Positions 35,530 to 35,880 of a stretch of 64,000 bases of DNA are shown piece by piece. The notes beneath the pieces were generated by a model, which had not been told where the DNA came from, did not search any database, and saw only the letters and a list, made by a program, of their open reading frames with translations. The stretch comes from Fusobacterium perfoetens (GTDB lineage Bacteria; Fusobacteriota; Fusobacteriia; Fusobacteriales; Fusobacteriaceae). Made by a program: the position numbers and the translations under genes. Each line of letters opens with the position of its first letter. The stretch's first letter is position 1. The DNA lies in NCBI RefSeq assembly GCF_021531595.1, contig NZ_JADYUD010000006.1:1-64000 (forward strand), in the 5' to 3' direction.

Positions 35530-35560
35530 TAAAAAAAGGACAACCTTGTTAGGCTGTCCT
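35530..35560 (-). terminator. Attenuator terminator upstream of livJ
   Basis: On the minus strand AGGACAGCC pairs with GGTTGTCCT (one G-U) around a TAACAA loop, followed by seven T's, 30 bases before livJ. The left arm and loop contain CCTAACAA, complementary to TTGTTAGG inside the leader ORF. Confidence 0.75.
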
Positions 35561-35651
35561 AAAACTACTAAAGTTATTATTTAAAAATATTTTTTATAAA
35601 ATAAACTTTTAAATGATATTTATGTATCATCTAAAAAATTAACTTATGCTA

Positions 35652-35792
35652 TTATAAAAAATTATATTTAAACAAAGGCAATAGAATATGACTTAAACTT
35701 TCCCTAACAAAACTATCTGCATATTTAGTTGTGTTCCTTATTATCAGCAGTATGACACATATGACAAATATTATGCTAAGTAGTAAAAACAT
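35652..35792 (-). CDS. Branched-chain-amino-acid-rich leader peptide of livJHMGF
   Basis: A 46-codon ORF with a near-perfect AAGGAGG site before the ATG at 35792. It begins MFLLLSIIFVICVILLIIRN: 13 of residues 2-18 are Leu, Ile or Val. Codons GTC, CTG and CTA are used here though the genome prefers TTA and GTT. The C-terminal half is ordinary and polar. It lies between a promoter and a terminator, like the brnQ leader. Segment TTGTTAGG (35710-35703, codons about 28-30) can pair with CCTAACAA of the terminator, offering an antiterminator when ribosomes stall on the BCAA codons. A small membrane protein is the alternative. Confidence 0.6.
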   Translation of the reverse strand: MFLLLSIIFVICVILLIIRNTTKYADSFVRESLSHILLPLFKYNFL

Positions 35793-35820
35793 ATTCTAAC
35801 CTCCTTTTTTATAAATATAT

Positions 35821-35847
35821 TCAATAAGAATATTTTTTTCTTATTGA
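35821..35847 (-). other. 5'-end hairpin of the liv leader
   Basis: TCAATAAGAA (35821-35830) pairs with TTCTTATTGA (35838-35847), 10 bp with a 7-base loop, at the predicted 5' end of the liv transcript and just ahead of the leader ribosome site. It may protect the 5' end. Confidence 0.5.
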
Positions 35848-35851
35848 GGTA

Positions 35852-35880
35852 AGTATAGAACAAAATCAAAAAAAAAGCAA
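35852..35880 (-). promoter_or_regulatory. Promoter of the liv operon
   Basis: On the minus strand TTGCTT (35880-35875), 17-base spacer, TATACT (35857-35852). The stretch 35881-36075 beyond it is AT-rich and holds no ORF that I can support. Confidence 0.7.

Follow-up and report, generated by a model that had tools for sequence, protein, structure and literature searches.

What is the short open reading frame (ORF), rich in leucine, isoleucine and valine codons, doing ahead of the branched-chain amino acid (BCAA) transport operon livJHMGF of Fusobacterium perfoetens? The operon lies within a stretch of 64,000 nucleotides (positions 1 to 64,000 of contig NZ_JADYUD010000006.1), referred to here as the window. 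Comparison of its leader with those of relatives, together with RNA folding models, indicates that it is very probably a ribosome-mediated transcription attenuator of the trp/ilv/leu type, sensing the charging of Leu, Ile and Val transfer RNAs (tRNAs).

The liv leader and its pairing regions

The leader occupies the minus strand, flanked by an upstream permease gene and livJ. Its parts and the genes it precedes are as follows.

35852-35880, minus strand: promoter, with TTGCTT (35875-35880), a 17-nt spacer and TATACT (35852-35857)
35800-35806, minus strand: ribosome-binding site AAGGAGG of the leader ORF (from the sequence)
35652-35792, minus strand: leader ORF of 46 codons, MFLLLSIIFVICVILLIIRNTTKYADSFVRESLSHILLPLFKYNFL (homologues in relatives)
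35758-35780, minus strand: region 1, the putative anti-antiterminator, CTTAGCATAATATTTGTCATATG (control codons inside; predicted to pair with region 2; conserved and covarying)
35703-35710, minus strand: region 2, the putative antiterminator strand, TTGTTAGG, codons 28-30 (conserved whatever the reading frame)
35546-35553, minus strand: region 3, CCTAACAA, spanning the terminator left arm, the loop and the first base of the right arm
35537-35560, minus strand: intrinsic terminator (regions 3:4), AGGACAGCCT-AACA-AGGTTGTCCT, 10 pairs, -15.9 kcal/mol
35530-35536, minus strand: T tract (T7) after the terminator (from the sequence)
34355-35500, minus strand: livJ, BCAA binding protein, the controlled gene (Pfam/NCBIfam)
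30893-34270, minus strand: livHMGF, after livJ (Pfam/NCBIfam)

Comparison of the leaders identifies four pairing regions, predicted to form 1:2, 2:3 and 3:4 helices. Region 1 covers codons 5-12, including CTT, ATA and GTC-ATA, and its partner, region 2, lies around codons 24-30. When leaders are folded singly, the ORF folds back on itself, pairing CTTARCATAAT (from codon 4 or 5) with ATTATGTTAGG and, in the next helix, TTTGTCATATG with CATATGCCAAA. A small hairpin caps the 1:2 stem (CTCATA...TATGAG, with CTGATA...TATCAG before ilvE and ACTCAG...CTGAGT in leader L066). RNAalifold chose the CTTARC:GTTAGG helix on an alignment made from sequence only. In one such alignment (A2), 88.5% of cells in the 1:2 pairing are paired; displacing the partner by 1-3 columns lowers this to 33-51%. 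Two-sided changes number 17, against 5.4 after shuffling (0/500). A wider alignment (A5) gives 43 against 10.3, a figure biased towards structure since that alignment is model-fitted. The six-pair core taken alone carries a weaker 1:2 signal, its covariation score being reached by 23/500 shuffles.

The 2:3 pairing is 97.6% paired, a percentage inflated by the choice of alignment windows (A3) around the motif; the changes at variable positions are unaffected by that choice and include 5 two-sided ones, against 1.3 after shuffling (0/500). Matched 2:3 partners pair at -10.3 kcal/mol and permuted ones at -8.5 (n=24; 0/20,000 permutations as good, P<5e-5), while the 1:2 partners give -12.8 matched and -10.9 permuted. 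GTTAGG mostly occurs with CCTAAC, ATTAGG with CCTAAT (5/5), GCTAAG with CTTGGC and GTTAAG with CTTAAC. In two ilvE leaders (L200, L201), read by eye, GTTAGG:CCTAAC is swapped for ACAAGAT:ATCTTGT, and at the second and third livJ copies of the window genome the terminator site varies to CCTGAC and CCTTAC. Regions 1 and 3 both pair with region 2, which thus has two partners; without region 1 there would be no switch.

In the window leader, TTGTTAGG and CCTAACAA are complementary at 8/8 positions. The first-pass annotation had noticed this perfect match between codons 28-30 and the left arm and loop of the terminator, and its reading of the match as an antiterminator is now backed by the covariation and the permutation test. 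It had overlooked region 1, which holds the control codons and is predicted to sequester TTGTTAGG, so that of its attenuator design the pairing stands and region 1 has to be added. The TTGTTAGG site pairs with the terminator arm at -10.8 kcal/mol and the strongest rival partner at -6.1. A covariance-model match in this leader spans 35702-35781, and the 371-nt leader folds better than 100/100 shuffles (z -4.7).

The promoter, ribosome-binding site and 46-codon ORF of that annotation were all read back in the sequence, as were its 13 Leu, Ile or Val among the 17 residues 2-18; its terminator, placed 30 bases before livJ, has its stem 36 bases from the livJ ATG. The -35 element is weak and the promoter is absent from the consensus-scan output; the pattern TTG(C/A)-T-tract-TATACT is kept upstream of homologous leaders, and a Shine-Dalgarno-like sequence stands ahead of the start codon in the listed leaders. 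One terminator-like site was found in the 1.1 kb scanned, against 0.1 expected. The locus thus has a short upstream ORF with a ribosome-binding site, predicted to be translated, and a terminator between that ORF and the first gene. The products of the liv operon include members of PF13458, PF02653 and PF00005.

Two further observations concern this locus. TTAGG-ACAG-CCTAA at 35549-35562 (minus strand) folds into a small local hairpin, part of which coincides with the left arm of the terminator; the hairpin is not kept in leader L002. An imperfect inverted repeat, AATGACA...TGTCATT, lies at about 36150-36210 and beside livJ at L005; it seems to recur in the genome and is perhaps a dispersed palindromic element.

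Control codons and the object of conservation

Leader codons 2-21 depart from the usage of 32 window genes. GTC supplies 65% of Val codons in the leaders (26/40) and 1.9% in the genes; for Leu, CTC supplies 18% (18/100) against 0.5%, CTG 16% against 1.6% and CTA 17% against 4.0%; for Ile, ATA supplies 91% (139/152) against 49%. As the leaders are kin, binomial P values on these counts are not strict. GTC, CTG and CTA had been called unusual in the first-pass annotation, and the window figures bear this out. Past codon 21 usage reverts, GTT making up 68% and ATT 63%. Codons 2-20 of the window leader use GTC for 2/2 Val, ATA for 6/6 Ile and CTG for 2/5 Leu. The control codons thus match the amino acids of the operon, and their synonymous choice is biased; why codon choice matters in attenuators has been discussed previously (PMC1183508). 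Although it has no partner in the 1:2 stem, the C of GTC does not vary in A2, a sign of selection on the GTC codon itself. The draft window genome gave 49 tRNA matches, none of them a tRNA-Val(GAC) or tRNA-Leu(GAG); presumably, then, wobble pairing serves to read GTC and CTC.

The subclass L066-L069 lacks this enrichment, with Leu, Ile or Val at 5/17 residues. L066, L067 and L069 stand upstream of a second livJ paralogue in genomes of genus g5, which includes Fusobacterium mortiferum. These leaders share the design and have few BCAA codons (MYSANICWTTVYGLSLSLNN...); they carry a conserved N-I-C-W-T-T and two rare CTC codons, and may sense another amino acid, or Leu via CTC only.

It is improbable that the peptide instead arrests the ribosome as a nascent chain of the TnaC/SpeFL kind, sensing free BCAAs in the tunnel and not tRNA charging. 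Many leaders do keep N/S-I-I-x-F-V-I-C/Y at the residue level, as such a peptide would require, but the conservation is at the codon level (GTC, ATA), region 1 pairing accounts for much of that at the residue level, and the RNA logic is retained by leaders with other peptides (MYSAANIIISICIILV, MYLTSILLAIIILIL, MAMLFMALNLIMILML).

The reading frame bears on a second alternative, already raised in the first-pass annotation: that the ORF encodes a small single-helix membrane protein accompanying the transporter, with the terminator and the complementarity incidental. A transmembrane segment with positive charge after it is plausible at the N-terminus, the ORF has been conserved, and L001 and L005 have the C-terminal extension HILLPLF(K/R)YNF in common. 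However, 35 leaders have region 2 in frame 0 (V-R/K), 12 in frame 2 (e.g. M-L-G) and 6 in frame 1, where it overlaps a TAG stop, and GTTAGG is retained in L002 and L191, which are frameshifted relative to their closest relatives. The use of all three frames indicates that what is conserved at region 2 is RNA and not peptide. Beyond the RNA element neither protein sequence nor frame is kept, the C-termini being unrelated between leaders in length and sequence. The extreme synonymous choice, the lack of a Pfam match to the leader peptide and the presence of leaders before ilvE and M20 genes, neither of which encodes a transporter, likewise make a membrane protein very improbable.

A riboswitch or T-box reading a metabolite or uncharged tRNA directly, with the ORF secondary, would suit the conserved stem with its apical hairpin, and BCAA T-box regulons of Firmicutes cover similar gene classes. 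It is scarcely credible here, given that a ribosome-binding site is present and the ORF runs through regions 1 and 2, that the leader has no Rfam match at the gathering threshold (only one below it, E 0.03) and that a published survey lists no T-box in its Fusobacteria/Thermotogae set of 2 genomes (PMC2494555). A match to the small RNA rteR over the terminator was also sub-threshold and was taken as chance. Elsewhere in the window are two SAM riboswitches (RF00162, above the gathering score), at 13503-13589 and 51563-51665, both on the minus strand.

Proposed operation of the attenuator

The attenuator would work as follows. When BCAAs are plentiful, the ribosome would run through the ORF, the 1:2 stem would form, and the 3:4 terminator would stop transcription before livJ. 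If translation did not start, 1:2 would likewise form, leaving region 3 to region 4, and termination would follow. When BCAAs are short, the ribosome would stall at the BCAA codons of region 1, and the free region 2 would capture region 3 before region 4 is made, so that liv is transcribed. Homologous cassettes would act alike on ilvE, on the remaining liv operons and on genes for peptide uptake and for additional transporters.

Folding was modelled on nascent RNA ending with the last base of the terminator loop, a stage at which region 4 has yet to be made. With no ribosome, predicted 2:3 pairing is at most 10% in 18/23 leaders and 0% in the window leader. Masking a ribosome footprint at codons ~4-11 switches 2:3 on in most leaders, and at ~13-20 often does not. 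In the window leader, the mask model gives the antiterminator only for codons 2-5; when RNA up to the ribosome is barred from pairing, 2:3 reaches 89-96% at V10-I11 and 94-99% at I17-I18.

Several results weigh against this account. If upstream RNA may pair past the ribosome, the antiterminator at V10-I11 in the window leader falls to ~0, so the prediction depends on the ribosome model. L003, L005, L064, L076 and L079 are predicted to form 2:3 even with no ribosome, and the leaders of opp genes (L037-L040) have weak 2:3 pairing (-6 to -7 kcal/mol). At equilibrium the full-length RNA favours the terminator; the switch must therefore be kinetic, its timing being assumed as in known attenuators. 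The shuffle counts given above come from leaders that are kin and are not strict probabilities. Finally, a ribosome at the stop codon cannot be what generally masks region 2, since several leaders have their stop 50-60 nt or more downstream of it (54 nt in the window leader). In the window leader it would thus have to be 1:2 refolding behind the ribosome that frees the terminator. A terminating ribosome could mask region 2 in those leaders whose stop abuts it; the distance from stop to region 2 correlates with that from region 2 to the terminator (Spearman 0.66, n=45, related sequences).

Spread of the cassette and its relation to known systems

LivJ homologues of at least 60% identity occur in four genera of Fusobacteriaceae. 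In g1, the genus of the window, and g5, a leader with Shine-Dalgarno sequence, ORF and terminator precedes every such livJ homologue with readable upstream DNA. No leader was seen at the livJ homologues of g4 and g6 (66-70% identity), nor at those of Miniphocaeibacter and of further relatives among the Firmicutes. Three livJ copies (C6, C13, C12) occur in the window genome, and a separate leader precedes each of them. With brnQ, this makes three liv operons and one further transporter gene, each under its own attenuator. No ilvE homologue was found in this genome; one is present in 6/6 other genomes searched in the genus.

A covariance-model search, as the first-pass annotation had proposed, was run with models R1 (from A2) and R2 (from A5) over 98 genomes of the phylum. 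Below an E value of 1e-4 there were 42 matches, training sequences counted, all in Fusobacteriaceae (g1, g5 and one g12 genome), and nothing convincing was found in the rest of the phylum. On inspection, the strong matches not known before had an ORF, region 2 and a terminator every time. Model-found leaders precede ilvE and genes for an SBP_bac_5 (Opp/Dpp) binding protein, an SBF/BASS transporter, a Lactate_perm protein and an M20 amidohydrolase. The first-pass annotation had predicted matches in front of ilv, leu or other BCAA genes, and the search bears this out, ilvE included. Among weaker matches, L205, L208 and L210 precede a YkvI-like permease, named by resemblance, and L209 a BASS gene. 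The leader L064, before a MATE-like gene adjoining brnQ, may be left over from a liv operon that has since been lost. The window liv leader and the ilvE leader L053 have 22 identical bases in common (ACTTAGCATAATATTTGTCATA), a match that favours a shared origin of the cassette.

Other matches were set aside. Manual inspection discarded the weak model matches L206, L207 and L211-L215, most of which fall within genes, and a protein search with the leader peptide alone gave many chance matches, L041, L043, L045, L051, L060 and L074 being rejected. A genome search for the pattern CCTAAN{2,12}GGYNG..TTTTT, since replaced by the covariance model, picked out only the two window terminators and some chance sites, but not the copies at C13 and C12. 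The diverged ilvE leaders L200 and L201 are outside the reach of the model, so more leaders of their sort probably exist. The BASS transporter (L180, L181, L183, L187, L209) is related, below cutoff, to the ketopantoate/pantoate transporter PanS; its place under a BCAA attenuator suggests a branched-chain oxo acid substrate.

The second leader of the window precedes brnQ.

30587-30670, minus strand: brnQ leader ORF of 27 codons, MLHIAVIFILSLIVIQSIKLNMNSKVY, with TTAGG overlapping its stop codon
30500-30524, minus strand: brnQ leader terminator, AACAGCCTAATTTACTACGGCTGTT, running on into the T tract (from the sequence)
29156-30451, minus strand: brnQ, the controlled gene (TIGR00796 above cutoff)

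As the first-pass annotation had it, the liv and brnQ terminators share ACAGCCTAA and both leaders offer TTAGG; the window has 4 copies of ACAGCCTAA where 0.54 would be expected, two in these terminators and two inside genes. The brnQ leader has the design of the liv leader, but its region 1 sits elsewhere (CCTGATA) and the covariance model did not recover it, so common descent of the two is unproven. Leaders of this design before brnQ were found in g1 only. At L080 and L081, brnQ has a TTGACA promoter with a CCTAA terminator almost directly after it and no leader ORF; TTAGG reappears there in the brnQ ribosome-binding site (ACTTAGGAG). Counting brnQ and near-identical leaders, there are ~55 leaders in 20 Fusobacteriaceae genomes before ~ten gene types; of the small regulon of homologous attenuators first suggested, the regulon holds, "small" does not, and the homology of its liv and brnQ members is the unproven part.

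The enterobacterial ilv, leu and trp attenuators have, as here, a short ORF with control codons, exclusive 1:2, 2:3 and 3:4 pairings, and an intrinsic terminator before the genes. Their control-codon choice is likewise biased (PMC1183508). They belong to a different phylum, no sequence similarity is claimed, and they control synthesis operons, whereas the fusobacterial cassette controls mainly uptake (liv, brnQ, peptide) and ilvE. Only on the fusobacterial side is one homologous cassette repeated over many unrelated genes, with region 2 inside the ORF in any frame and often far from the stop. The ilvD attenuator of Staphylococcus aureus also has a BCAA-rich leader peptide at which stalling is proposed to promote an antiterminator, but there the proposed partner of the antiterminator is the poly-U tail, with the terminator stem left intact (PMC5794164), whereas here region 2 would take the left arm and loop; the genes controlled also differ. 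In Corynebacterium, ilvBNC is likewise reported to have a conserved upstream ORF (the ilvB-II motif; PMC10272879, PMC11857589), in an actinobacterium and on a single biosynthetic operon. T-box regulons similarly place one cis-RNA family before synthesis, transport and other genes of one amino acid; here there is no T-box RNA, and translation would do the sensing.

Leader-peptide attenuators of BCAA synthesis are thus known from enterobacteria, corynebacteria and staphylococci. A report of 2010 (PMC2965389) gave Proteobacteria and Actinobacteria as the only groups in which such systems had been known, and itself added Firmicutes. No leader-peptide attenuation of amino acid genes was found reported for Fusobacteriota in the literature searched, subscription papers lying outside its coverage. 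The mechanism is classical; as far as that literature goes, what is new is that it occurs in Fusobacteriota and that, unusually, one homologous cassette has been dispersed over genes of transport, peptide uptake and transamination.

We give about even chances to the proposal that a single cassette (promoter, leader ORF, regions 1 and 2) was duplicated to ~eight unrelated gene families, so that a cis element sensing translation would serve a scattered regulon for BCAA starvation, comparable to those of T-boxes. On that reading, the BASS, lactate-permease-family, YkvI-like and M20 genes would probably act on branched-chain substrates, be they oxo acids, hydroxy acids, BCAA conjugates or peptides. 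The covariance model finds further members, and the substrate guesses for poorly annotated transporters are testable. The cassette may explain how BCAA import, transamination and peptide uptake are coupled to tRNA charging in Fusobacteriota.
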